Origin: Acidobacteriota bacterium
Lineage (GTDB): Bacteria > Acidobacteriota > Vicinamibacteria > Fen-336
Length of the DNA: 58,816 nucleotides
Assembly (NCBI GenBank): GCA_003223555.1
Contig: QHVM01000085.1
Coordinates: forward strand, 268,754 to 327,569
Direction: 5' to 3'
The translations under genes were made by a program, and so were the position numbers. Every line of letters starts with the position of its first letter. Position 1 is the first letter of the stretch. Shown one piece after another: positions 1 to 55,208 of this stretch. The notes beneath the pieces are model-generated. The model was not told the DNA's origin. It worked only from the letters and a program-made list of their open reading frames with translations, and searched no databases.

Positions 1-483
1 GCCGCGCGCACCCGCAACGGCAGGGTGGGCGTGATGGCCACCGCGGGCACCATCGCCTCCGAGCGATTTGCGCGACTCGTGCGGGAGCACGCGCGCAGCG
101 TCGAAGTGCTGGCCCAGGCCTGCCCGGGGCTGGCCGACCTCATCGAGGAGGGACATCTCGACGGCGAGATCCTGCGCGCGCGCCTGCTGGAGCTGACCGA
201 GCCGCTGCGCCGGGCCCGGGTCGACACCGTCGTGCTCGGCTGCACGCACTACGCCTTCGTCCGCGACCCGGTCGCGCAGGTCATGGGTGCCGGCGTCGAG
301 CTCGTCGACAGCGCGCCGGCCATCGCCCGGCGGACGCAGTCCCTGTTGCGCGACGATGGGAAGCCCCGCGAGGCGACAACCGGCTCGTTCAGGGTCCTCA
401 CGACCGGCGAGCCGCGCACCGTGGCGCCGGTCATCTCCCGCCTGTGGGGCGCCGAGGTGCCCGTGGAGTCGGTGGAGATCTGA
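1..483 (+). CDS. murI: Glutamate racemase, C-terminal part (5' end outside window)
   Basis: Converts L- to D-glutamate in the cytoplasm for peptidoglycan synthesis. The reading frame is open from base 1 and ends at TGA 481-483, so only about 160 C-terminal residues are present. Visible signatures are the GVMAT-GTI strand typical of the family and VVLGCTHYAF, which carries the second catalytic cysteine (TGC at 241-243) and its neighbouring histidine. The first catalytic cysteine would lie upstream of the window. The end VPVESVEI is a normal family terminus. The next gene faces the opposite way, so this is the last gene of its transcript. Confidence 0.9.
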   Translation, partial: AARTRNGRVGVMATAGTIASERFARLVREHARSVEVLAQACPGLADLIEEGHLDGEILRARLLELTEPLRRARVDTVVLGCTHYAFVRDPVAQVMGAGVELVDSAPAIARRTQSLLRDDGKPREATTGSFRVLTTGEPRTVAPVISRLWGAEVPVESVEI

Positions 484-501: not shown

Positions 502-954
502 TCAGCCTTCTTCGTCCACCTCCAGCAGGCGGTCGAGGATGAGGCCGTGGAAGCCGGCCGTCCCGGCGCGGAACAGCCAGCCCAGGTGCTGGCGGCACGC
601 GGCGCACTGCTCGACCAGCCAGGAGTGGGGAGGAAACCAGCTCCAATAGGCGCTGGGCTCGCCCACCGCGACACAGCCGGTGGCGTCCGAGAAACATCCG
701 ATCCTGAAGCTGAAGCCGGCCGGGTTGGCGAAGGTGTGCTCGTGGGAGCCCGCGACCTCCATGCGGGCGGCGGAGGTCGTGACCGGCAGCCGGCAGCCGG
801 CGCAAGCGAGGACCCGGCCGCTCGCCTCCTCCTCCGACGAGGATGCCGCGGGCCGCACCGTGCTCGCGGGCTCGGCGGGCCGGGCCCGGAGCAGGTCGAG
901 GGAGGCGCTCGGGCCGGCCGGGTGCGCCAGCGTGTGGTAGATTGGCGGCCTCAT
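502..954 (-). CDS. Bacterial cereblon-like CULT-domain protein
   Basis: 150 aa. The first 45 residues are low-complexity. Residues 50-145 match the CULT fold, the thalidomide-binding domain of cereblon: zinc ligands CAGC (C51, C54) and CAAC (C117, C120), an ANP turn at 76-78 (cereblon VNP), SWFPPHSW at 105-112 (cereblon SWFPGYAW), HLGWLF at 123-128 (cereblon HIGWKF) and a closing GFHGLILDRLL helix (cereblon FWGLTRSALL). The three tryptophans of the ligand cage are W106, W112 and W126. Free-standing bacterial CULT proteins of about this size are known but their natural role is not. The start is ATG at 954 with a weak ribosome site. The gene is divergent from the pullulanase gene with 58 bp between the starts. 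No Lon-like or DDB1-binding part is present. Confidence 0.85.
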   Translation of the reverse strand: MRPPIYHTLAHPAGPSASLDLLRARPAEPASTVRPAASSSEEEASGRVLACAGCRLPVTTSAARMEVAGSHEHTFANPAGFSFRIGCFSDATGCVAVGEPSAYWSWFPPHSWLVEQCAACRQHLGWLFRAGTAGFHGLILDRLLEVDEEG

Positions 955-1012: not shown

Positions 1013-4000
1013 ATGATGACCGCCATTCTCCCGTCTTCGGCCTCGCGACGACCCTGCACCGCGGCCCTCGCGCTCGTGTTCCTGGGGGCCGTGGCGGCTC
1101 GCGCCGCCGACACGCCGGCGCCGCGCACGGTCACGATCCCGGGAAGCTTCCAGTCCGAGCTGGGCTGCCCGGGGGACTGGCAGCCCGACTGCGCCGCGAC
1201 GCACCTGACCGACGCCACCGGCGGAGTGTGGCGGGCGACCTTCAACGTCCCCGCCGGGGACTGGGAGTACAAGGCGGCCCTCAACGACAGTTGGGACGAG
1301 AACTACGGCGCGAACGCGACGCGCAACGGACCCAACATCTCCCTGTCGCTCGGCCAGGCGGCCGCGGTCCGGTTCTACTACAGCCACGACACGCATTGGG
1401 TCACCGACAACCGCCGGTCGGTCATCGCTACCGCCCCCGGCAGCTACCAGCACCTGCTCGGCTGCCCGAGCGATTGGGACCCTTCGTGCCTGCGGGCGTG
1501 GCTGCAGGACCTCGACGGCGATGGGATCTACCGCTTTTCCACCCGACTTCCCGCGGGCAGCTACGAGGTCAAGGCCGCCATTGGCGAGAGCTGGGACGAG
1601 AACTACGGCGCGGGCGGTGCGCGCAACGGAGCCAACATTCCGTTCACCGTCCCCACCGACTGCGCGGAGATGGTGTTCACCTACGATTCGTCCAGCCACG
1701 TCCTGAGCGTGGCCCCGGCCGGGCCGGCTCCCCAGCCGACGAGCGTCACGATCGCGGGCAGCTTCCAATCGGAGGTGGGCTGCTCGGCAGACTGGCAGCC
1801 CGGTTGCGATGCCACGCATCTCGGCTTCGACGTCGAGGACGGCGTGTGGCAAGGGAGCTTCGACGTCCCCGCGGGGAGCTGGGAATACAAGGCCGCCCTG
1901 AACGACGCTTGGGACGAGAACTACGGCGCCAACGCCACCCGTAACGGCCCCAACATCTCGCTCTCGCTGGCGGAGGCCCGGACGGTCAAGTTCTACTACG
2001 ACCACCAGACGCACTGGGTGACGAGCAGCGGCAACGCCACGATCGTCACCGCGCCCGGCAGCTATCAGCACTTCCTCGGGTGCGTCGACAACTGGAGGCC
2101 CGCGTGCCTGCGTTCCTGGCTGGAGGATCCGGAGGGCGACGGGAGCTACAGCTTCTCCACCCGCGCCTTGCCGGCCGGAAGCTACGAGGTCAAAGCCGCC
2201 ATCAACGAGAGCTGGGACGAGAACTACGGGGACGGGGGCGTGCGCAACGGCCCCAACATCCCCTTCACCGTCCCGACCTCCTGCGCGGAGACGTTCTTCC
2301 GCTACGACGCGGCCAGCCACGTGCTGTCGGTCAGCACCCAGGGCGCGCCGCGGGGCAACCTGGCGCGGGCCCGGGCGCACTGGCTGTCGCGCGACACGGT
2401 TGCCTGGAACGTGGGAGCAGTCCAGCCGGGATGGACGGTCAAGCTTCACTACGACGCGCAGGGCGGTCTCACCCTGGGGCCCGACGGCGTCCACGGCGGC
2501 GTCGAGATCCCGCTCGCGTACGATCCAGCCGGGCTCAGCCCCGAGCTCAGAGCCCTCTTCCCGCACCTGGCCGCCTACCCGGCCTTCAAGGTGCCGGCGG
2601 CGCGCCTCGACGACGTCCCGGCCGCGCTCAAGAGCCAGCTCGCCGTCTCCGCCACCGACGGGTCAGGCGACCCCGTCGATGCCACGTCGCTCCAGATCCC
2701 GGGCGTGCTCGACGACCTCGACACCTACACCGGCCCGCTCGGCGTGACCTTCGACCACGGCGTGCCCACGCTCCGGCTGTGGGCTCCCACCGCGCGCTCG
2801 GTCAAGCTCCACCTCTTCGCCGATTCCAGGCCGGCCACGACCGATTCGGTCCTCGACATGAGGCCAGGAGCCTCGGGGCGGTGGGCGCTCACCGGCGATG
2901 CGAGCTGGTACGGCAAGTTCTACCTGTACGAGGTCGAGGTGTACGTGCGCTCGACCGGCCGCGTCGAGCGCAACCTCGTGACCGATCCCTACTCGGTGAG
3001 CCTCTCGCGCAACAGCCAGCGGAGCCAGATCGTCGACCTCGCCGACCCGGCGCTGAAGCCTCCCGAGTGGGACGCGCTCGCCAAGCCCGCCCTCGAGGCC
3101 CCGGAGGACATCGTCCTCTACGAGCTGCACGTGCGCGACTTCAGCGCCGGCGATGCGAGCGTGCCCGAGGGCCTGCGGGGGACGTTCAAGGCGTTCACCC
3201 AGACCGACTCCAACGGCATGAAGCACCTCGCCGCGCTCGCCCGCGCCGGCCTGACCCACGTCCACCTGCTGCCGTCGTTCGACATCGCCTCCGTCGACGA
3301 GGACAAGACCCGGTGGCAGTACCCGGCGGGGGACCTGGCCAGCTTCCCCCCCGACTCCGACCAGCAGCAGGCGGCGGTCACCTCGGTCGCCGACAAGGAC
3401 GCCTTCAACTGGGGCTACGACCCGTGGCACTACACGGTGCCGGAGGGCAGCTACGCCACCGACGCCGACGGGCCGGCCCGCATCCGCGAGTTCCGCGAGA
3501 TGGTGCAGGCCCTCGCCGGCCAGGGACTGCGGGTCGTGATCGACGTCGTCTACAACCACACCAGCGCCTCCGGGGAGAGCAGTCAGTCGGTGCTCGACCG
3601 CGTGGTCCCGGGCTACTACCACCGGCTGGACGCGGACGGGAACGTCGAGACCAGCTCCTGCTGCCAGAACACGGCCAGCGAGCACAACATGATGGAGAAG
3701 CTGCTCATCGACTCGGTGCTCACCTGGGCCCGCGCCTACAAGGTCGACGGCTTCCGCTTCGACATCATGGGCCACCACATGAAGCGCAACATGGTGAAGC
3801 TCCGTCAGGCCCTCGATGCGCTCACCCCGGCCGCGGACGGAGTGGAAGGGACGAAGGTCTACGTCTACGGCGAGGGCTGGAACTTCGGGGAGGTGGCCAA
3901 CAACGCGCGGGGCGTCAACGCCACCCAGGCCAACATGGCCGGCACCGGCATCGGCACCTTCAACGACCGCATCCGCGACGGCGCCCGTGGCGGCGGGCCT

Positions 4001-5248
4001 TTCGGCGGCCGGCAGGAGCAGGGATACCTCACCGGCCTCTTCTACGACCCCAACGCGACCAACCAGGGATCGCCCGCGGACCAGCTCGCGGCCCTTCTCC
4101 TCCGCGAGGACTGGATCCGCCTCTCGCTCGCCGGCAACCTGGCCGACTACCAGTTCGTGGACCGCAACGGGAGCCTGATCGCCGGCCGCCAGCTCGACTA
4201 CAACGGCCAGCAGGCCGGCTACACAGCGGATCCGCAGGAGGACATCAACTACGTCGACGCCCACGACGACGAGACGCTGTTCGACGCCGTCCAGCTCAAG
4301 GCTCCCGCTTCGACGCGCATGCCTGACCGGGTGCGCATGCAGGACCTCGGGATGAGCCTCGTTGTCCTCGGCCAAGGTATCCCGTTCGTCCACGCCGGCA
4401 TCGACATGCTGCGGTCGAAGTCGCTCGACCGGAACAGCTACAACTCGGGCGACTGGTTCAACAGGCTCGACTTCACCTATGCGTCCGACAACTGGGGCGT
4501 GGGGCTGCCGCCCGCCCGCGACAACGGGAACAACTGGATCGTCATGAGACCCCTGCTCGGTGACCCCGCCCTGAAACCCGTCCGCGCGGACATCGAGGCC
4601 GCCTCCGCGCACTTCCAGGAAATGCTGGCGATCCGGAAGAGCTCGAAGCTGTTCCGGCTGCGGACGGCAGCCCACGTCGAGAGCCGACTGCGCTTCCACA
4701 ACACGGGTCCCGGCCAGCTCCCGGGTCTCATCGTGATGAGCTTGTCGGACGACGACGGGGCGGTCGACCGCGCGCATGCCCGGATCGTCGTTCTCTTCAA
4801 CGCCAACCGGGACGCCGCGAGCTTCGCGGCTGCCGACTTCGCGGGGCTGCCCTTCGTCCTGCACCCGATCCTGGCCGCTTCTCACGACCCGGTCGTTCGG
4901 ACCACGTCCTTCTCCCGGGCCAGCGGCACCTTCTCGGTGCCGGCTCGCACGGCGGCGGTCTTGTGGGCGCTGCGGCCGGCGGACCAGCGGATCGGCCTGC
5001 TCGCGGGAGACATCGACGGCCTGGTGGCGAACGGGACGCTGAACCCGGGCCAGGGTAACGCGCTGTCCGTCAAGCTGCGGGCCGCGTTGGCCCAGTTCGG
5101 CCGCGGCAACAGCCAGGCGGCGGCGAACGAGCTGCGGGCCTTCGGCAACCAGGTCCGGGCCTTCGTGAGCGCGGGCATACTCTCGCCCGGGCAGGGCGCC
5201 TCCCTCGCGGGAGAGGCGCAGCAGATTACCAACCAGATCGGCCGATAG
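1013..5248 (+). CDS. pulA: Exported type I pullulanase with four X25 modules and a C-terminal FIMAH-like domain
   Basis: 1411 aa, hydrolysing alpha-1,6 bonds of pullulan or glycogen outside the cytoplasm. A signal peptide covers about residues 1-31. Four X25-type modules of about 100 aa follow (about 36-440), each with a WDENYG motif and arranged A-B-A-B. Next come the pullulanase N2-like and CBM48 domains and a GH13 barrel with ELHVRDFS (about 702), VIDVVYNHT (about 840), GFRFDIMG carrying the nucleophile Asp (about 915), YGEGWN with the acid/base Glu (about 953) and DAHDDET (about 1081). The last 85 residues ([13 protein letters not shown]... and [11 protein letters not shown]) resemble the helical FIMAH domain. 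A GAGGAG ribosome site precedes the ATG. Downstream is a convergent cupin gene. Confidence 0.92.
1123..2337 (+). repeat. In-gene tandem duplication of an X25 A-B module pair
   Basis: Two direct copies of about 600 bp (about 1123-1725 and 1741-2337) encode the same A-B pair. Module A copies share GSFQSE-GC-DW and [17 protein letters not shown]. Module B copies share GSYQH-LGC and [19 protein letters not shown] identity is high, with most changes at third codon positions. The modules therefore arose by duplication of a pair, not by four single duplications. In family pullulanases X25 domains are accessory, probably starch-contacting. Confidence 0.85.
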
Positions 5249-7129: not shown

Positions 7130-9340
7130 TCAGCGCGAGGCGGTCTCTGGCCCGAGGGCGAACGCCTCGTGGCGCTCCAGTCGGGCACCGCTCACCTCGT
7201 CCTTCACCTCCAGGGTCAGATCGTAGGAGCCGGGGGCCATGCCGTCGAGCGTCATGCCGACGAGCCGGACCAGGCGGCCGTCGGGGTCGGCGGCGATCGG
7301 AGTCGGGGCCGCCTCCCGCACGAGCCGGCCGTCGCCCGTCCGCAGCGCCAGGCCCGCGCTGACGCGAGGGCCGGCCGGAGCGGCCCGCGCGGCGCCGAAC
7401 ACCTCGAACTGGCAATACAACCGTCCGCCGGGCGCGAAGGTGCGGTGCACGGCGAGCGCGGGCTGCGGGCGCGCCTGGCCGGGGGTGCCCTCGAGCCGGT
7501 CGGTGAGGATGGGCGTCGACAGGCGCAAGGCACCCGGGCCGGGCACCTCGAAGCGCTGCGTCACCGCGCCGGTGGCGTCGCCCGCCGGGGCCCGCACGAC
7601 GACGCGGGCTTGCGCGACCCCGGGCGGCAGCTCGAACTCGCGGGTAAAGGCGCGCCACCCCGGCGACTGGCCCGCGGCAGCGCTGACCTCGAGGGCGCCG
7701 TCGTCGCGGAACGTCCGCCCGGTGTCCCGGTGCGTGACCACCACGCTGAACTCGAGGCGGGCATTGTGCGCGCCACCCTTGGGCGGCAAGCCCGCCCGGC
7801 TGGCGTCGAACTCGGCCGCCACCAGCACGCGGGTGGCATCCTGGCTCCGCGGCTCGAAGACGTAGGCCATCGCGCGCAGCGGGATGCCGGCCTCGTCGTG
7901 GGCGGAGTCGAGCGCGCGGACGACGGCCGCGTCGACGGCCGGCGCCTTCTCCTTCTTCCCCGGCCGGGCGGCGGCCTCCGCGCGCAGGCTGTACCCGCGC
8001 CGGGCCCGCACCGCGAGCCCCGGCCGCCGGACCTCGACCCGCAGCTTCCGCCACTGGCCGGCGGACTTGCCCGGCGGAGGGTGGAAGCCCAGCAGATAGA
8101 AGACCCGCGACTCGTCCGCGATGCGCTCCACGCCGCCCGCGAGGTCGTTCGTGTTGCGCACCGAGAAGCCACCGGTGTCGTCGGCGAGGGTCTGGGCCCC
8201 GGCCGAGGCCAGCACCGACTCCTCGAACCTGACCGTCGTGCGCTCCCGCGTGAGATCGCCCGCGTTGAGCGTCTCGGAGTGCTCGACGTCGTCCGCCCCG
8301 CCGTAGCCGGGCCCCTGGGCCACCAGGCCCCGCACGTCGATGAAGTAGACGGCGGTGTTCGCCTCCCGTGACGTGGCGGCGATGCCGCGCAGGTCCAGCG
8401 CCGAGTCTTCGAGGAAGCCCGGCGAGATCAGCAGGAGCGACTTGCGGCCGTGCACCGCGGCCAGAGCCTCGAGGCCCCTGCGCACCGACTGGAGGGTCAG
8501 GCGAGTCCGGTCCCGGCGCTGGGCGTCGAGGTCGGAGGCCCAGCCGCGCACCATGCCGTCGCAGGCGGTCGGGTCGCAGAGGTTGTTGCTCGCCCAGCGC
8601 CGCTTCACGCGCTCCTTGATGGCTCCCAGCGAGCCGGGCATCGCCTCGGACGCCTGGGCGGCCGCCCGGTCCGCCACGGAGCCGGACGGACCCGAGGGCA
8701 GCGCGGAGTTCATGGCCGGGGAGTCCTCGTAGTTGGCGATCCGGTAGGCTTCGTAGTCCGACATGCGGGCGTAGGTCGCGGCGTCGCCGCCCCGCCCCTT
8801 CACCCGTTGGAGCAGCGCGAGCAGGTCCGGGCGGCCCTCGGGGACGCGGGCGTTCCACCAGACCTCCCCGCTCGACGTGCCGAGCGTCACCTCGTCCCCG
8901 TCGTGGACGGCCCGGTCCATGAAGGCGGCGGCCGCGCTGCGGGCGCCCGCCGCCTGGGGAGACGGGGTTCGCAGGTCGTCGATGATGATGGCGAAGGCGC
9001 GGCCGTTGCCGCCCGCGCTCGCCGCGTTGCTGGCCACCACGGGGGGCGTGGCCGGCGGCGCCGGCGCCTCCGGCGGCGGCTCGAGGACGAAAGGCTCGAA
9101 GCTGACGATCTCCTGGGGCCTTCCGTCCTCCGTGACCACGAAGTCGTCGCGGCCGAGGCCGGCCACGGGACGCCCGGCCGAGTCGAGGACCACCGCATCG
9201 ACGGTGATGAGCTCCACCTCCGAGGAGAAGGTGGGCAGGTTGGGCGGCGCCTGGGCTCGGGCCGTGCGGCTTCCTTCCCGCAGTGCCAAAGCTCCCAGCA
9301 GCGAGACGAGCGACGGGAGCAGCGAGCGGCGTCCCATCAT
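7130..9340 (-). CDS. Exported VWFA-related protein of the acidobacterial type
   Basis: 736 aa. A signal peptide (MMGRRSLLPSLVSLLGALAL) leads into a conserved beta segment (FSSEVELITVDAVVLD) that opens the VWFA-related acidobacterial family. The VWA-like core begins FAIIIDDLRTP and continues through KSLLLISPGFLEDS. The C-terminal half is beta-sandwich-like. The canonical MIDAS DxSxS is replaced by DDLRT, as is common in this group, so metal binding is uncertain. ATG 9340 overlaps the TGA of the upstream regulator gene by four bases. The two are one operon, which suggests the regulator controls or senses this envelope protein. Function unknown. Confidence 0.82.
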   Translation of the reverse strand: MMGRRSLLPSLVSLLGALALREGSRTARAQAPPNLPTFSSEVELITVDAVVLDSAGRPVAGLGRDDFVVTEDGRPQEIVSFEPFVLEPPPEAPAPPATPPVVASNAASAGGNGRAFAIIIDDLRTPSPQAAGARSAAAAFMDRAVHDGDEVTLGTSSGEVWWNARVPEGRPDLLALLQRVKGRGGDAATYARMSDYEAYRIANYEDSPAMNSALPSGPSGSVADRAAAQASEAMPGSLGAIKERVKRRWASNNLCDPTACDGMVRGWASDLDAQRRDRTRLTLQSVRRGLEALAAVHGRKSLLLISPGFLEDSALDLRGIAATSREANTAVYFIDVRGLVAQGPGYGGADDVEHSETLNAGDLTRERTTVRFEESVLASAGAQTLADDTGGFSVRNTNDLAGGVERIADESRVFYLLGFHPPPGKSAGQWRKLRVEVRRPGLAVRARRGYSLRAEAAARPGKKEKAPAVDAAVVRALDSAHDEAGIPLRAMAYVFEPRSQDATRVLVAAEFDASRAGLPPKGGAHNARLEFSVVVTHRDTGRTFRDDGALEVSAAAGQSPGWRAFTREFELPPGVAQARVVVRAPAGDATGAVTQRFEVPGPGALRLSTPILTDRLEGTPGQARPQPALAVHRTFAPGGRLYCQFEVFGAARAAPAGPRVSAGLALRTGDGRLVREAAPTPIAADPDGRLVRLVGMTLDGMAPGSYDLTLEVKDEVSGARLERHEAFALGPETASR

Positions 9341-39456: not shown

Positions 39457-40374
39457 TCAGGAGCGAGCCGGCCCCAGCCCGGCCGCGACGGCCTTGCCGA
39501 GCAACGCTTGCAGGCGGCCGCGGCTGGCGGGGGAGAGCGCCCGCGTCCCGCGCGCGAAGGCGCCGAGCGCGGCGCGGTCCTCCGACGGGAGGGTGGCGCG
39601 CAGCCCGCGCACGCGGTCGTAGTCGCGCAGGCGTCCTCGCTCGGCCGGACGCAGCGCGGCGAGGAGCGCGCCCTGGAGCGACTTCAGCTCCTCCGCTTCC
39701 GGAGCCGTGAGCGCCGACGAGCCGTTCTTGGCGGCCGCGTACGCGCGGCTGAAGACCTCCGGCGGGTCGGGGATGCTCCACGCGCTGCTGGACAGCACGA
39801 GCTGGATCGTCTCGGGGGCGAGGTGGGGGAGCTGCTCGCCGGCCGTCTTCAGCGCTTCCTGCCGCTCCCGCTGCTGCGCGTCGTCCATGCCCGGCGTCGA
39901 CGCGCGCCGCGGGTGCACCTGCTCATCGATCTTCGTGAAGAAGATCAGGCCGAGCCGGGTGACCACGGGCAGCCACGTGGGCCACGTCGTGGCGGCGACG
40001 TATGCGCCCGCGGCCAGGGCGGCGAGAAGGACCGCGCGCTGCAGCCACAGCCACGCGGTGGCGAGGAGCCCGCCGCCCTCGTAGACCTCGTCGTCCTGCC
40101 ACTCCTCTTCCGCATGGGCCAGGCGCAGGGACGGGAGCGAGCCGGCCGGCGCCGGGGACGGCTCGCCGTCGAGGGGCTTGAGCGGGATGACCGCGACCCC
40201 GTCGTCCGGCCTCGCCGGCCGCGACGCGGCCAGGACGTCCTTCAGCGGCCGCCAGTCGGAAGAGCCGGAGGGCTGGACCATGGCCTTCTCGTCGACCGCC
40301 CAGGTCCGGAGGCCCTGGTCGTCCACCGCGAGCACGGTGCCGTCTCCCAGACGCAGCTTGAACTGGCGAGCCAT
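39457..40374 (-). CDS. GYF-like single-TM protein, paralogue A
   Basis: 305 aa. Residues 1-48 form a small domain resembling GYF_2/DUF4339 (FKLRLGDGTVL, GLRTWAVDEKAMVQP, SDWRPLKDVL). A linker with RPARPDDGVAVIPLKPLD follows. One TM helix lies at about 110-130 (AVLLAALAAGAYVAATTW). The last 130 residues are helical (LPHLAPETIQLVLSS, LTAPEAEELKSLQGALLAALRP, ALSPASRGRLQALLGKAVA). The same four-part plan appears in the protein at 53874. Neither is in a family I can name. A CRP-type palindrome lies 65 bases before the start. Confidence 0.75.
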   Translation of the reverse strand: MARQFKLRLGDGTVLAVDDQGLRTWAVDEKAMVQPSGSSDWRPLKDVLAASRPARPDDGVAVIPLKPLDGEPSPAPAGSLPSLRLAHAEEEWQDDEVYEGGGLLATAWLWLQRAVLLAALAAGAYVAATTWPTWLPVVTRLGLIFFTKIDEQVHPRRASTPGMDDAQQRERQEALKTAGEQLPHLAPETIQLVLSSSAWSIPDPPEVFSRAYAAAKNGSSALTAPEAEELKSLQGALLAALRPAERGRLRDYDRVRGLRATLPSEDRAALGAFARGTRALSPASRGRLQALLGKAVAAGLGPARS

Positions 40375-46294: not shown

Positions 46295-49200
46295 ATGCGC
46301 TGCCATTCCCTTCGCAGCACCGGGACGGGCGTCTCTCTAGCCGCGCTCACCGGCCTGGCGCTCACCGTCGGGGCTCCCGCGGCCCGCGCCCAGTCGACAT
46401 ACGGCGCGGTGGTGGGGGTCCTCACCGACACCACGAAGGCCGTCGTGCCCGGGGCGCCGGTGACGCTCACGGAGGTCCAGACGAACGTCAGGCGCGCCAC
46501 GACCTCCGCTCCGGACGGCAGCTACGAGTTCCTGAACCTGACCCAGGGCCGCTACCAGGTCACGGTCGAGGCGGGGGGCTTCAACAAGCGCGCCTCCGAG
46601 CCGTTCGCGGTGGCGGCCCGGCAGACGGTGCGCATCGACATGGAGCTGCAGACGGCGGGACGGACGGAGGAGGTGACGGTCAGCGGGGCCGCGCCCCTCA
46701 TCAACACGGAAAACCCGACGATCTCGGGCAGCAAGACCAACCGCGAGCTGCAACAGCTCCCCTTCACCTTCCGCACGTCCAACACCTCGCCGGTCGACAC
46801 GATCGCGGTCCTGCCCGAGGTGCAGAAGGGGAGCACCCAGTCCGACTTCTCGCTCTCCGGAGGGCAGGTCTACCAGAACGAGGTCTCGGTGGACGGGATC
46901 TCCACGACCAACGTGAGACGCAACGGCATCGGGGACGGCGGCCGGAACGTGTTCCCGTCGGTGGAGGGCATCGAGGAGATCCGGGTCAGCTCGATCAACA
47001 ACAACGCGGAGTTCGCCCAGACGGGCGACATCACCACGATCACCAAGCCCGGCACCAACGCCTGGAAGGGCAGCGCGTTCTTCAACTACAACAACGAGGG
47101 GCTCAACGCCAACCCCAACTACTTCTCGAAGAGCATCCCGAACCAGTCCGACAACAAGGACTACGGGGCGAGCCTCTCGGGCCCCATCATCAAGAACAAG
47201 ACGTTCTTCTTCCTGACCTACGAGCGGCTGCACATCGCGCGGACCGGGGTGGCCAGCGCCACCGTTCCCGAGGCGGATTTCCGCGCCGGCAACTTCTCGC
47301 GCCTGCCCTCCGCGATCATCGACCCCGGCACCGGCCAGCCCTTCCCGGGGAACATCATCCCTGCCAGCCGCATCAACCCCGTGAGCGCGATCATCCTGTC
47401 CAAGTACATTCCCGCGCCCAACGAGGGGCTGGCCCTGAACCGCTACTCGATCGACGCGACCGAGGTCAGCAACCAGATGGACCTGAGGGTCGACCACAAC
47501 TTCAGCTCCACCCACACGGCGTTCGTGCGGTTCAGCGGCAAGAACTGGAGGAAGATCAGCCCCACCAACTACCAGGCCTCCGGACCGCTCACCAACGAGA
47601 ACCCGACGCGCACCCTGGCCTTCTCGGACAACTGGGCGGTGCGGCCGACGGTCCTGAACGAGCTCCGCTTCGGCTACAGCACCTCGGACCTCACCAACCA
47701 GACCGGGCTCAAGGGACGCGACTTCGTGCAGGCGACCGGCCTGCGCCTGATCTCGCAGAGCCTGCCCGACATCACCGGGACCACCTTCATCGACATCGCC
47801 GGCTACACCCGTTTCGGCGAGTCCAAGGAGGAGCCGCTCACCACGCGCGCGATCCAGTTCGGGGACAACGTCACCTGGAGCACCGGCCGCCACACGTTCA
47901 AGGGCGGGGCCGACGTCCGGCACTACAACTGGACGAGCCCGCTCAACTTCACGGGCGCGGACGACTTCGGTGTCTTCCGCTTCCGCTCGACGCTGACCGG
48001 AGCCACGGGCAACGCCGTGGCCAACTTCCTCCTCGGGCTCCCGAGCGAGGTCGACCAGACGGCGACCGGGCCGGGGGTGGACGGGATCGCCACCCACTAC
48101 GGGTTCTTCGTCCAGGACGAGTTCCGCGTTAGCAACCGCGTGACCCTCAACCTGGGCGTCCGCTACGACCTCTACCCGGGATTCAAGGATGGCGAGCTGA
48201 ACATCACCAACTTCCTGCGGGACACGCCCAACGGGGACGTGGTGGTGCCCAACGAGGCGTCGCGGCAGCTCTCCAAGCCGGACTTCACGACCGGCCTCGG
48301 AAGCTCCAAGATCTACACCGCGGCCGAGGTGGGCTATCCCGAGGCGCTGCGCTTCACCGACTACAACAGCATCGCGCCGCGGATCGGCGTCGCCTGGCGG
48401 CCGTTCGAAGACAACCGGACCGTCCTCCGCGCGGGCTACGGCATCTACTACACGCGGATGCTGGGCGCGATCTTCAACTCGCTCACCGGCATCCACACCT
48501 CGGACAACCAGACCTACGGGAACTCGTTCGACCCGGCGACGCGCACCTTCGGCATCGTGCTGCCCAACACCTTCGCGGGGACGGCCGGACGGGGCGGGGC
48601 CGCGGTCGGCAACCAGAACTTCTCCACCGCCAACGACCCCCACTTCAAGGACCCGCAGACCCAGCAGTGGAGCCTCAGCCTCGACCGCGAGATCGGACTG
48701 CGCAACGCCTTCCGCTTCACCTACTCGGGGCGGCGTGACCGGCGGCTCACGCTGGCCCCCGACCTGAACCAGATCCAGCCGAACACCGTCGGCTTCCGCA
48801 ACCTGCCCCGCACGGCCCGGCCCTATCCCAACTGGAACCGGGTCAACACCCGCGACAACGGCGGCGAGGCCGACTACCACGACCTCACGTTCCAGCTCCG
48901 CGGGGAGGCGCGCGACGGCTTGTTCTACTCCGCCACCTACAAGTGGGCGCACGCGATCTCCAACATCGGACGACCGCTTCGACCCCGACTACACCCGCGG
49001 GAAGGTCACCGCCATCCCCGACCACCGTTTCACGGCGACGCTCATCTGGGAGCTGCCGTTCTTCAAGGGCAACAAGGCGTTCGGCGGGTGGACGCTGTCC
49101 AGCATCGTCACCGCCCAGTCCGGCTACCACCTCACGGCGTACTACAGCAGCCACTGCGGGTCGGGCACCAACTGCTACAACCCGGAGAAGGCGGACGCGG

Positions 49201-49580
49201 TCGCGGGCCAGGATCCCAACCGCGGCCCGAAGACGACGGACCAGTGGTTCAACACCGGGGCGTTCAGCAACCGCGCGTTCTTCGACGCCGCCGGCCAGCC
49301 GATCTTCGCCGGCCGTTTCGGCAACGCGCAGAAGGGCAACATCCTGGGGCCGGGCCTCTACACGATCGACATGGGACTCTTCAAGGACTTCAAGCTCCAC
49401 GGCGACACCACGCTGAGGTTCCAGGTCCAGGCCCAGAACGTCACCAATCACCCGAACCTCGGGATTCCCGAGACCGATCTTTCCAGCCCGAACTACGGCC
49501 GCATCACGACCCTGGCCGGCGCGGAGGGCTCGCCGCTCCGCAGCCGCATCGTCGTCCTCGGAGCGAGGCTGACGTTCTAG
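46295..49580 (+). pseudogene. Oar-like TonB-dependent receptor 2, split by a one-base frameshift
   Basis: The signal peptide (to about GAPAARAQ), the regulatory domain (STYGAVVGVLTDTTKAVVPGAPV), the plug (LPFTFRTSNTSPVD, YQNEVSVDGISTTNVRR, NAEFAQTGDITTITKPG) and most of the barrel read from 46295 to 48967 (891 codons). There an extra G (48968 or 48969) shifts the frame. Beyond it the other frame continues as DDRFDPDYTRGKVTAIPDHRF to the outer-membrane end GARLTF and TAG 49578-49580. Removing one G gives 1094 aa with no other defect. The original frame runs on by chance into the next gene. This could be an assembly error or a recent inactivation. Substrate unknown. Confidence 0.82.
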
Positions 49581-49600
49581 GCCGTAGCGCGCGTGCGCTC

Positions 49601-52279
49601 CTGGCCGGCGGCCTGACCGCGCTGGCCGGGAGCGCGCCGCGTCCTTCCTCTGCGGTCCGGCCCGTCCGGGAGCTTCACGCTCCGGCGGGGGAGCGTTACG
49701 CGCGCATCGACCGTGAAGGCGAGACCGTCCTGCCGAACGGGCGGCTCCTGACCCCTCGGGGCCGCCAGGTGACGACGGCGCCGCACCCGTTCGGGATGGC
49801 GCTCAGCGGCGACGGAAAGGTGCTCGTCACCGTCAACGGCGGCATCGAGCCGTTCTCGCTGACGGTCATCCGCGACCTCGACGGGGCTTCGCCGGTGGTC
49901 AGGCAGCTCCCGCCCGCGCCGCGTACCGACAAGCGGGCCCTGCCGTCGGCCTTCGTGGGCGCGGCCGTGGACGCCCCGCGGCGGCTCGTCTACGCCTCGG
50001 GAGGCGACGACGGGAGGATCGCGGTCTTCGCCCTCGACGACGGCACGGCCGCGGGCGCGATCTCCCTGTCGAGCCCTTCGCTGCCGGATCCTTTCCTCAC
50101 CGACATCGCCCTCTCCCCCGACGGCCGGCTCCTCTACGCGCTCGACCTCGCGCACTACCGGCTGGTCGTCGTGGATGCCGCCGCGCGGACCGTGCTCGCG
50201 TCGATCGGCGTGGGCCGCAACCCCTTCGCGCTCGCCCTCACGGGCGACGGCCGCCGGGCCTACGTGGCCAACATGGGGACCTTCCAGTACAGCCTGGTCG
50301 AGACCCGGGCCGGCGACGACCCGCGCGGGCTCGGGTTTCCGCCCTTCGGCTATCCATCGCGAGAGGCGCGGGAGGGTACGGTGGCGGAAGGGCGCCAGGC
50401 GCCCGGGCTCGGCGACCCCGGCGTCGACGAGGCCTGCTCGGTGTGGGGGATCGACGTGGCCGACCCGCGCCGGCCGTCGGTGGTCGCGCGTCTCAAGACC
50501 GGACTGCCGGTCGGCCCGGCCATCGGCGGGAGCAGCCCGGCCGGGCTCGCGGTCTCGGCCGACACGCTCTTCGTCAGCAACGCCACCAACGACAGCGTCG
50601 AGGCCTACGACCTGAAGGCCCACCAGCGGCGCTGGCGCGCGCTGCTGGCCCCGGAGGGCTCGATCGAAGGCCTGCGCGGCGTCCTACCCTTCGGCATCGC
50701 CCTGTCGCCGGACGGCTCACGGGTCTTCGTCGCGGAATCGGGCATCAACGCGGTCGGCGTGCTCGACGCCCGGAGCGGCGCGGTGCTCGGGCACGTGCCC
50801 GCCGGCTGGTACCCGTCGCGCGTGGCCGTGTCTCCCGGCGGCGGGCGTCTGTACGTCTCGAACGCCAAGGGATTCGGGGCGGGGCCCAACGGCGGACGCG
50901 GTTACGTGGAGGGGCCCGAAGGAAGCTACGTCGGCAACCTGATGAAGGGGACGGTCTCCCTCATGGACGTGCCCGCCGACGCGGAGCTCCGCGCGCTGAG
51001 CGATCGCGTCCGGGCCAACAACGGCTTCGTTCCCCGGCCCGTGGACCGACCGCCCGGCCATCCCGTCCCGCTCACCGGCGCCTCGTCGCGCATCCGCCAC
51101 GTCGTCCTCATTGCCAAGGAGAACCGGACGTTCGACGAGGTGTACGGCGACCTGCCGGGCGCCGACGGTGATCCCTCGCTGGCCCGCTTCGGCACGACCG
51201 GGCGGACGGTCGGGCTGCACGCGCAGGTCAGGGTCACGCCGAACCACCGGGCTCTCGCCGAGCGCTTCGCTCTCTCCGACAACTTCTACGTCGACAGCGA
51301 CGTCTCGGCCGACGGGCACCGCTGGCTGGTCGGCGCGTATGCGAACCACTGGGTGGAGACGATCACGGCCGCGGGCTACGGCGGCGGCGCGCGATGGAAG
51401 CGGACCGCGCCCGGGCGCTTGGCCCTGTTCGAGTCGAACTCCTCGCTCACGCCCGAGGACTACCTCGAGCGCGGATCGATGTGGGAGCACCTGGCCCGGG
51501 GCGGCGTCCGGTTCCGGAACTACGGCGAGGGGTTCGAGTTCGCGGGGACGGCCGAGGAGGGGGGAGAGGAGCCCACCGGCGCCCGCCTCCCGGTCAACGT
51601 CCCGATGCCGGAGGTCCTCTTCGCGGCCACCTCGCGCGAGTTCCCGGGCTTCAACATGAACATCCCGGACCAGTACCGGGCGGACGTGTTCCTGAAGGAC
51701 CTGGCCGGGCGCTACGCGTCCGGCCGCGAGGCGCTGCCACCCTTCCTCTACGTGTTCCTCCCCAACGACCACGGCGCCGAGGCGGCCCCCGAGCGCGGCT
51801 ACCCCTTCCTCGAGTCCTACGTGGCCGACAACGACCTGGCCCTGGGAAGGGTGGTGGAAGCGCTGTCACGCACGCCGTGGTGGCGCGACATGGCGATCTT
51901 CGTCACCGAGGACGACGCCCAGAGCGGCGTGGACCACGTCGATGCGCACCGCAGCCTGTGCCTCCTCATCAGCCCCTGGGCGCGGCGCGGCCACGTGTCG
52001 CACCGGCACGCGAGCACCGCGAGCATCCACAAGACGATCTACCGCATCCTCGGGCTCCCGCCGCTGCACCAGCCCGACGCCGTCGCCAGCGACCTCGGCG
52101 ATCTGTTCTCCCCGACGGCGGACGACGAGCCCTATGCCGCGCGCAGGGTGGACGCGCGGCTCTTCGATCCCGCGCGGGCCGGCGACCCCTCCGGCCCCCG
52201 CGGGCGCCGGGCCCGCCGACACCGGACCGAGATGGACGAGCCGGCGGAGGCGCGGCGCCAGCTCTCCGTCCGGCCCTGA
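49601..52279 (+). CDS. YncE-like propeller / phosphoesterase two-domain exported protein
   Basis: About 892 aa. Signal-like hydrophobic leader (LLAGGLTALAGSA), then a YVTN/YncE propeller (about 50-470; LSPDGRLLYALDLAHYRLVVVDAA, SNATNDSVEAYDL, LSPDGSRVFVAESGINAVGVLDA). The C-terminal half is an alkaline-phosphatase-superfamily phosphoesterase of the phospholipase C/acid phosphatase-like type (VVLIAKENRTFDEVYGDL, NFYVDSDVSADGHRW, FVTEDDAQSGVDHVDAHR). No ATG or GTG precedes the leader; the frame opens at the receptor stop, so CTG 49601 or translational coupling is assumed and the start is uncertain (the first GTG is near 49768). Confidence 0.8.
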   Translation: MAGGLTALAGSAPRPSSAVRPVRELHAPAGERYARIDREGETVLPNGRLLTPRGRQVTTAPHPFGMALSGDGKVLVTVNGGIEPFSLTVIRDLDGASPVVRQLPPAPRTDKRALPSAFVGAAVDAPRRLVYASGGDDGRIAVFALDDGTAAGAISLSSPSLPDPFLTDIALSPDGRLLYALDLAHYRLVVVDAAARTVLASIGVGRNPFALALTGDGRRAYVANMGTFQYSLVETRAGDDPRGLGFPPFGYPSREAREGTVAEGRQAPGLGDPGVDEACSVWGIDVADPRRPSVVARLKTGLPVGPAIGGSSPAGLAVSADTLFVSNATNDSVEAYDLKAHQRRWRALLAPEGSIEGLRGVLPFGIALSPDGSRVFVAESGINAVGVLDARSGAVLGHVPAGWYPSRVAVSPGGGRLYVSNAKGFGAGPNGGRGYVEGPEGSYVGNLMKGTVSLMDVPADAELRALSDRVRANNGFVPRPVDRPPGHPVPLTGASSRIRHVVLIAKENRTFDEVYGDLPGADGDPSLARFGTTGRTVGLHAQVRVTPNHRALAERFALSDNFYVDSDVSADGHRWLVGAYANHWVETITAAGYGGGARWKRTAPGRLALFESNSSLTPEDYLERGSMWEHLARGGVRFRNYGEGFEFAGTAEEGGEEPTGARLPVNVPMPEVLFAATSREFPGFNMNIPDQYRADVFLKDLAGRYASGREALPPFLYVFLPNDHGAEAAPERGYPFLESYVADNDLALGRVVEALSRTPWWRDMAIFVTEDDAQSGVDHVDAHRSLCLLISPWARRGHVSHRHASTASIHKTIYRILGLPPLHQPDAVASDLGDLFSPTADDEPYAARRVDARLFDPARAGDPSGPRGRRARRHRTEMDEPAEARRQLSVRP

Positions 52280-53873: not shown

Positions 53874-55208
53874 TCACCGCGCGGCGGCGATCGCCTTGCT
53901 GTAGAGCGTCTGCAGGCGGGTGCGGCTCTCCGGCGGCAGCGTGCGCACCCCGCGCGCATAGAGCCGGAGCACGCGGGCGTCCTCTCCGGAGAGCAGGTCG
54001 CGCCCGGCGCTGATGCGGTCGTAGGCGCGCACGCGGTCGCGGTCGACCGGGCGCAGCGCGGCGAGCGCCTTGCCGCGCAGCGCGCCGAGCTCCTGCGTTT
54101 CGGCCGGCGTCAGGGCCGCCGTCCCGCGCTTGGCCGCCGTGGTCGCGCGGCGGAACAGGTCCGGAGGATCGGACGGCCCGGCGACGCTGGACATCAGGAG
54201 CTGCACGGTCTCGGGGGCCAGGTGGGGCAGCTCGCTCGCCGCGACCTGGACCTCCGGGGGGAGCGGCGGCTCTTCCTTCGGCCGCGCCGGCGCCGCCACG
54301 GGAGCCGGCTGGGCTCGCGCGCCGTCCTCGGCGAGCAGCGCATGGCCCAGCCGGTTGAGCATCGCGATCCATGCCGGCGAGGTCGCCGCCAACAGGACGG
54401 CGGCTGCGGCCAGGCCGGCGATCCGCAGAGGGCGCTTGCCCCGGAGACGGCCCAGGTCGAAGGCCCGAGCCCGGCGGATGAGCCGATCGATCCCGACCGA
54501 CACATGGCCGAGCAGTGCCGCGACCTTCGGGGGGACGCGAGGTCTCTCCGCGATCAGCTCCAGCTCTTCCAGGCTCCCTTCACCTTCGCCGGCCCATGGC
54601 TGGGACGCCGATGCGCTGTTGGCGCTGGCGGAACCCGCTCGCGGCTCGGGTGCGGTCCACCGCCACGGGCCATGGCCCCCGCCGTGGCGCTCCAGCTCCG
54701 CCGAGGCCACGTCGAGAAGGCTCTGGCTCGGAGGCTCCGGCGCGACTTCATCGTCGAGCGGCTTCAGCCGGATGACGGGGACCGCGTCGTCGGGTCTCGC
54801 CGGCCGGGGCGCGATCGGGTTGGCCCGTGGCGCGGTCGGCTTGTCCCGTGGGGTGGTCGGCCTGTCCCGCCGCTCGGTCGGCTCGGCCAGAGGGGCAGTC
54901 GCTTCGGCCAGCGGACCGACCATGGGGTTGCGGGCCAGCACGTCGTCTTCGGGCTGAGCGAACGGGATGAACGGGATCTCGTGGTCGGCCAGCTTCTTCG
55001 GCGCCGGCGGCTCGACGGATGGCGGGCGAATGGGGAGCGGAGCGGGCTCGGGGCGCGGCTGGGCCAGCACGTGCTTCAGCGGCTGCCAGCGGCGCGAGCC
55101 CGGCGGCTGCACCATGACCTTTTCTTCGAGCAGCCAGGTGCGGAGGCCGTCGTGGTCCACCTTGAGGACGGTTCCGTCTTTGAGGCGCAGGCGGTACTGA
55201 TCGGGCAT
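53874..55208 (-). CDS. GYF-like single-TM protein, paralogue B
   Basis: 444 aa. The same plan as the protein at 39457. The GYF-like head (YRLRLKDGTVL, GLRTWLLEEKVMVQP, RRWQPLKHVL) is residues 1-50. The longer linker holds short direct repeats of PT-T/A-PR type and RPARPDDAVPVIRLKPLD. One TM helix is at about 262-285 (PLRIAGLAAAAVLLAATSPAW). The last 130 residues (LPHLAPETVQLLMSS, LTPAETQELGALRGKALAALRP, RTLPPESRTRLQTLYSKAIA) are collinear with A. A CRP-type palindrome lies 61 bases before the start. Convergent with the permease gene. Function unknown. Confidence 0.75.
   Translation of the reverse strand: MPDQYRLRLKDGTVLKVDHDGLRTWLLEEKVMVQPPGSRRWQPLKHVLAQPRPEPAPLPIRPPSVEPPAPKKLADHEIPFIPFAQPEDDVLARNPMVGPLAEATAPLAEPTERRDRPTTPRDKPTAPRANPIAPRPARPDDAVPVIRLKPLDDEVAPEPPSQSLLDVASAELERHGGGHGPWRWTAPEPRAGSASANSASASQPWAGEGEGSLEELELIAERPRVPPKVAALLGHVSVGIDRLIRRARAFDLGRLRGKRPLRIAGLAAAAVLLAATSPAWIAMLNRLGHALLAEDGARAQPAPVAAPARPKEEPPLPPEVQVAASELPHLAPETVQLLMSSVAGPSDPPDLFRRATTAAKRGTAALTPAETQELGALRGKALAALRPVDRDRVRAYDRISAGRDLLSGEDARVLRLYARGVRTLPPESRTRLQTLYSKAIAAAR

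Follow-up and report, generated by a model that had tools for sequence, protein, structure and literature searches.

The gene at positions 502..954 on the minus strand of the window, the 58,816-nucleotide stretch of Acidobacteriota DNA analysed here, almost certainly encodes a member of the CULT family. Sequence, fold and family alignment are concordant on this identity and show a zinc-stapled beta-tent domain with a complete three-tryptophan cage in a free-standing bacterial CULT protein. The best explanation for its function, which we hold at about an even chance, is a ligand-gated receptor for cyclic imides, possibly those at damaged protein C-termini, with an N-terminal motif that recruits a partner. 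Free-standing bacterial CULT proteins are a published group, reported mainly from delta-proteobacteria with a few alpha- and gamma-proteobacterial members and one from a spirochete (PMC4287342), and accounts of the family that include crystal structures date back to 2014-2015 (PMC4287342, PMC4449219). New here are the Acidobacteriota lineage, an altered pocket rim, a genomic context shown to be uninformative and the N-terminal motif.

Protein-degrader drugs rely chiefly on cereblon as their handle, and the bacterial role of its pocket, described as unknown in a first-pass annotation of this DNA, is still not established in the literature found. The CULT protein alone is an ordinary protein of known type and changes little. 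Its N-terminal motif, a concrete bait for finding a bacterial partner, is the single point here that a specialist might pursue; it could reveal whether cells disposed of cyclic-imide-damaged proteins before the ubiquitin system arose.

Identity and fold of the CULT protein

The open reading frame runs from an ATG at 954 to a stop codon at 502-504 and encodes 150 residues. In phmmer comparisons residues 47-145 matched MsCI4 (Magnetospirillum gryphiswaldense cereblon isoform 4, PDB 4v32) with an E value of 9e-21 and 38-39% identity, and human cereblon was matched at E about 1e-10, cereblon matches as a whole spanning 1e-7 to 2e-10. Neither the curated Pfam nor the NCBIfam models were matched; the Yippee/Mis18 model (PF03226) scored 17.2 bits (E 0.0057) against a Pfam gathering score of 26.6 bits, a sub-threshold match that is expected of a distant relation with a shared fold. 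No other domain was found with Pfam or NCBIfam, consistent with a free-standing protein, and Pfam detected no LON domain in the 150-aa frame, which is thus not a cereblon-type LON-CULT fusion. Inspection of residues 1-46 by eye revealed no hydrophobic stretch suggestive of a signal peptide.

An AlphaFold2 model built from 70 sequences had a mean pLDDT of 86, rising to 96-98 over residues 51-140. The model superposed on thalidomide-bound MsCI4 (4v2y_B) with a VIA Z score of 19.7 and an rmsd of 1.1 A over 102 residues (47-148), and on the human cereblon domain with Z about 18 (VIA) at 30% sequence identity, whilst Foldseek aligned it to 5amh with E 6.5e-11 and a TM score (target) of 0.91. The CULT domain (residues 47-149; 508..816, minus strand, as are all features of the CULT gene given below) has the beta-tent fold with an inserted hairpin bearing the NPxG motif, here NPAG (N77-G80; 715..726). 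The first-pass annotation had proposed this identity from the letters alone and had named two grounds for giving it up, namely the lack of a significant match to CULT profiles and a model in which the tryptophans form no cage; neither came true, the match to MsCI4 being significant and the superposition of the model on MsCI4 implying a cage of the three tryptophans.

Zinc is predicted to be bound by C51 and C54 of a CAGC sequence (793..804) and by C117 and C120 of a CAAC sequence (595..606), and all four cysteines were invariant in an alignment of 95 relatives. The aromatic cage consists of W106 (637-639), W112 (619-621) and W126 (577-579), together spanning 577..639 and aligned to W79, W85 and W99 of MsCI4, on which the cage geometry was inferred by superposition. 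Also invariant in the 95 relatives were N77, P78, W106, F107, W112, G125, W126 and F135, although the invariance of W106 and W112 arises partly by selection because 80 of the 95 came from a pattern search and one of its two patterns contains both residues; W126 and the zinc cysteines are absent from the search patterns. G80 was present in 88/95. The four cysteines and three tryptophans that the first-pass annotation had listed are therefore all in place, and its quoted FPPHSW and HLGWLF motifs are exact.

Free-standing organization, zinc cysteines, tri-Trp cage, NPxG and fold are shared with MsCI4, which lacks the approximately 27 additional N-terminal residues, comprising motif and linker, seen here. 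With the thalidomide-binding domain of human cereblon the CULT protein has in common the fold and the equivalents of the W380/W386/W400 cage, but it is without the LON domain, the DDB1-binding region and a ubiquitin system. It resembles the group I bacterial CULT proteins of Lupas et al. 2015 (PMC4287342) in being small and free-standing with no other recognised domain, and differs from those listed there in belonging to an Acidobacteriota clade and in its N-terminal motif, the latter found also in many relatives.

Ligand pocket

The pocket residues W106, W112, W126, N77 and F128 are conserved. The equivalent cage accommodates glutarimide and uracil-type rings in MsCI4 and cereblon. Thalidomide, uracil and uridine are all ligands of MsCI4 (PMC4287342), the pocket of which unfolds once ligand is lost (PMC4449219). 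The cage of the present protein would very probably bind cyclic-imide or uracil-type ligands in vitro. Cereblon reads protein C-termini that carry a cyclic imide (PMC12117711), and that the natural ligand here is likewise a protein C-terminal cyclic imide is a serious candidate reading, which we rate somewhat below an even chance.

Two positions distinguish the pocket from that of MsCI4. At the cage base, F128 occupies the position of MsCI4 Tyr101, a position that is Phe in human cereblon. Tyr101 makes an extra hydrogen bond in MsCI4 (PMC8900816), a bond predicted to be absent from the CULT protein because of the phenylalanine. The rim reads Y103-W104-S105 (640..648), whereas the family usually has E-F-[TS]: in the 95-member alignment position 103 is E in 79/95 and Y in 6/95, and position 104 is F in 72/95, H in 12/95 and W in 10/95, with W104 standing in place of human H378. 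Since the equivalent Glu76-Phe77 of MsCI4 lines a channel beside the glutarimide ring, and the rim here is Tyr103-Trp104, selectivity for those parts of a ligand that lie outside the ring may differ from that of MsCI4.

This replacement of the usual acidic rim residue, together with the many kinds of ligand that aromatic cages bind (PMC4287342), would also suit a binding or resistance protein for some other cage ligand; candidates are side chains that are methylated or cationic, compatible solutes and secondary metabolites with an imide ring. We consider this improbable, since the residues that secure the glutarimide ring in MsCI4 and cereblon are retained here and no biosynthetic cluster recurs beside CULT genes among 100 neighbours.

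Genomic context and distribution

The CULT gene lies tail-to-tail with the 3' part of murI (glutamate racemase; 1..483, plus strand; PF01177 E 8e-13, TIGR00067 E 7e-24) and is divergent from a pullulanase gene (1013..5248, plus strand; TIGR02103 1160 bits) encoding four X25 domains (PF22058 x4) and a C-terminal FIMAH domain. The first-pass annotation was correct in placing a free-standing CULT protein beside a cell-wall gene and an amylolytic gene, but these neighbours proved uninformative on its function. A functional link to murI or pullulanase was rejected, as the congener G001 carries both adjacent to one another in the absence of CULT (locus L139; murI ends at 7514 and pullulanase starts at 7616, about 100 bp apart), and the CULT carriers G005, G007, G012 and G014 contain nothing that matches this murI. 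The two neighbours are thus incidental.

A stretch at 928-957 of the window, GTGTGGTAGA(T/G)TGGC(G/C)GCCTCATC, is conserved at about 7530-7570 of the congener locus, in each case upstream of pullulanase. The CULT start codon lies within this stretch (MRPPIYHTLA, compared with MRRPLYHTRS in the CULT-less congener), which may be either the promoter of pullulanase or what is left of a lost CULT start. Because the first approximately 10 codons overlap this DNA, conserved 5' of pullulanase in a genome without CULT, the exact start of the CULT protein is uncertain; similarity to the G005 protein (LRAR) argues that translation would begin at or upstream of residue ~18. Scans around the CULT gene yielded no promoter or terminator, and no RNA element reached its gathering score in the window.

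Across 70 non-redundant loci no specific neighbour family recurred beyond single clades. An operon partner was rejected, as the sole widely found neighbour cluster (17 loci) was a broad group in scattered positions, and the commonest Pfam family among 100 neighbours occurred 3 times. Upstream neighbours were on the same strand in 41 cases and the opposite strand in 28, and downstream neighbours in 35 and 34, respectively, which is near random. The lack of a recurrent neighbour and the near-random strand arrangement indicate that the CULT gene is an accessory, self-contained unit. Clade-limited neighbours comprised a fused uroporphyrinogen-III methyltransferase/synthase in Desulfobulbales-type genomes and asnB- and fusA-like genes in Desulfobacteraceae; the fused gene lies directly 5' of CULT on the same strand in L025, L036, L041, L044, L065, L072, L078 and L092. 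In four genomes of the CULT carrier's own family a small conserved protein (MAYTYDELKKKTIDELREIAKGIDNEAVKGYTQMNKEHLLPAICKALGI..., 57-75% identical; L012 877-1344, plus; L007 4689-5483, plus; L008 4978-5355, plus; L010 4186-4572, minus) is encoded 2-7 kb from CULT amid mostly different genes, and two of the four are close relatives.

Beside CULT, the surveyed loci show no recurrent family of proteases, Lon-type proteins or unfoldases. Adjacency of CULT and LON as a precursor of cereblon was likewise rejected, the LON-domain genes of this genome being located on different contigs or 200 kb from the CULT locus. Co-occurrence with PIMT, which repairs related protein damage, was discarded as evidence, all genomes (49/49) carrying PIMT. 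The context also bears on the main rival to a cyclic-imide receptor, in which the cage would read free uracil-type bases and ligand-dependent folding would signal to a partner. Binding of uracil and uridine by MsCI4 and the solved deoxyuridine complex (4v31) are in keeping with such a pyrimidine sensor, yet genes of pyrimidine salvage or degradation do not recur beside CULT in the surveyed loci and no regulator or effector domain is attached to the protein, and we regard it as unlikely.

CULT relatives were found in 6/60 near relatives, in 12/396 genomes sampled from the phylum and in 29/297 genomes sampled from the phylum of Desulfopila. An alignment query of GTDB contigs retrieved 281 CULT stretches, and the phyla and classes represented in these contigs and in the tree were Acidobacteriota, Thermodesulfobacteriota, Myxococcota, Spirochaetota and the Alpha-, Beta- and Gammaproteobacteria; no CULT match was confirmed in viral contigs. 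In a tree of 116 rows, the resolution of which is limited by few columns, the CULT protein fell in a seven-row clade confined to its own phylum, Acidobacteriota, with support of 99/86. This placement fits vertical descent with repeated loss.

The CULT gene is missing from most relatives and therefore does nothing essential. Its absence from these and from the congener might even suggest a remnant, drifting neutrally with no present function in this genome, a reading that we consider very improbable: the frame is open, all pocket residues are kept at 45-57% identity to relatives and pN/pS in the core is 0.2 across close family pairs.

An N-terminal motif and linker

The N-terminal extension, on which the first-pass annotation is silent, contains the sequence SLDLLRARP (residues 18-26; 877..903), its own copy of the motif described below, followed by a linker (residues 27-46; 817..876) that is Pro/Ser-rich and then EEE, and is predicted from pLDDT to be disordered. 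Comparison of extensions side by side showed that a hydrophobic-hydrophobic-[LF]-[RK] motif is frequent 26-33 residues before the first Cys, consisting of 2-3 hydrophobic residues ending in Leu or Phe, then Arg or Lys and often Pro, with 20-25 polar and often acidic residues of disordered linker before the first Cys. Copies in relatives include AKYCLRIPG, AVCLLRIPA, PALFLRQST and SFYFLRIPL, to which the protein's own LDLLRARP is a middling match, and motif-bearing CULT members come from Acidobacteriota, Thermodesulfobacteriota, Spirochaetota, Myxococcota and Gammaproteobacteria. The divergent CULT subgroup formed by L135, L136 and L137, which sits on a very long branch, lacks the motif and has GGNG[AS]K shortly before the first Cys.

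An unsupervised EM motif search of 70 non-redundant extensions gave a log-likelihood of 206, compared with 138-156 in 12 shuffled sets. Between 18 and 34 residues ahead of the first Cys the regular expression matched 28/70, where 6.2 were expected and the maximum in 2000 shuffles was 17, and was at chance level in both flanking zones; this set of 70 was ranked by similarity to the present CULT protein and may favour sequences sharing its N-terminus. On 24 unseen Desulfobacterota proteins the trained score averaged 3.19 against 1.15 +- 0.375 for shuffles, whilst the strict regular expression matched 3/24 of these independent proteins with 1.7 expected, which is not clearly above chance. Enrichment is thus strong in the main set and weaker in the independent set, and the motif is present in a large part of the family but is not universal. 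In close pairs pN/pS fell from 0.82 upstream of the motif to 0.47 within it, 0.44 across the linker and 0.20 over the domain, indicating that selection on the protein sequence starts at about the motif, although the motif is no more constrained than the linker.

In two models the N-terminal segment made no confident contact with the domain (pLDDT 53-68); pLDDT of the linker was about 60 in the CULT protein and < 50 in the relative L075. These models bear on whether the N-terminus, rather than reaching a partner, docks belt-like along its own CULT domain, in the way that the extension of cereblon follows its thalidomide site (PMC4287342, PMC4449219). VIA placed the first model, from residue 32 onwards, against two cereblon chains (4tz4_C, 8ojh_B), starting at their residue 48, but the aligned stretch has a pLDDT of about 60 and the match disappears with the second model, made with motif-bearing sequences. 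The motif itself (18-26) falls outside the match and the FDxxLPxxHxYLG of cereblon is absent, leaving belt docking with only a slight chance of being correct.

A proposed role

On the reading that we prefer, a ligand-gated receptor for cyclic imides, the cage would fold around a small planar cyclic imide, which in cells might be a C-terminal glutarimide or aspartimide from a damaged protein breaking at Gln or Asn, or a mimic of one. As MsCI4 is partly unfolded without ligand, binding could act as a switch. The N-terminal motif may be a docking peptide for a partner, a weaker inference than cyclic-imide binding. A reader domain joined by a linker to a short motif is an anatomy compatible with an AAA+ protease adaptor, which makes this a candidate role: the protein might deliver proteins or peptides marked by a cyclic imide to disposal machinery, for example an AAA+ protease, as a bacterial counterpart of the part that cereblon plays in the ubiquitin system. 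This adaptor reading makes use of every part of the protein, but we hold it unlikely, because no partner is known, neighbouring genes lend no support and the motif is not universal.

SspB is a ClpXP adaptor with a tethered docking peptide, and on general knowledge the CULT protein may be likened to it, as a lead only, in its small folded reader, flexible linker and short hydrophobic-basic peptide, the docking-type peptide being N-terminal in the CULT protein; we know of no relation of sequence or fold between the two. More broadly, and at a slightly lower rating still, bacterial CULT proteins might serve a cyclic-imide degradation pathway that predates cereblon or runs parallel to it; as its adaptors they would capture in the cage proteins whose C-terminus is a cyclic imide and dock on a bacterial unfoldase or protease through the tethered N-terminal motif. 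A small stand-alone gene with no fixed partner and patchy occurrence suits an accessory quality-control or sensing protein.

Other genes in the window

Elsewhere in the window, two minus-strand frames at 39460-40374 and 53877-55208 begin similarly (MARQFKLRLGDGTVLAVDDQGLRTW and MPDQYRLRLKDGTVLKVDHDGLRTW) and are apparently paralogues, neither having a Pfam match. A frame of 1994 residues on the plus strand (46295-52276) combines an outer-membrane beta-barrel with a C-terminal phosphoesterase (PF25183, PF04185) in an apparent fusion.
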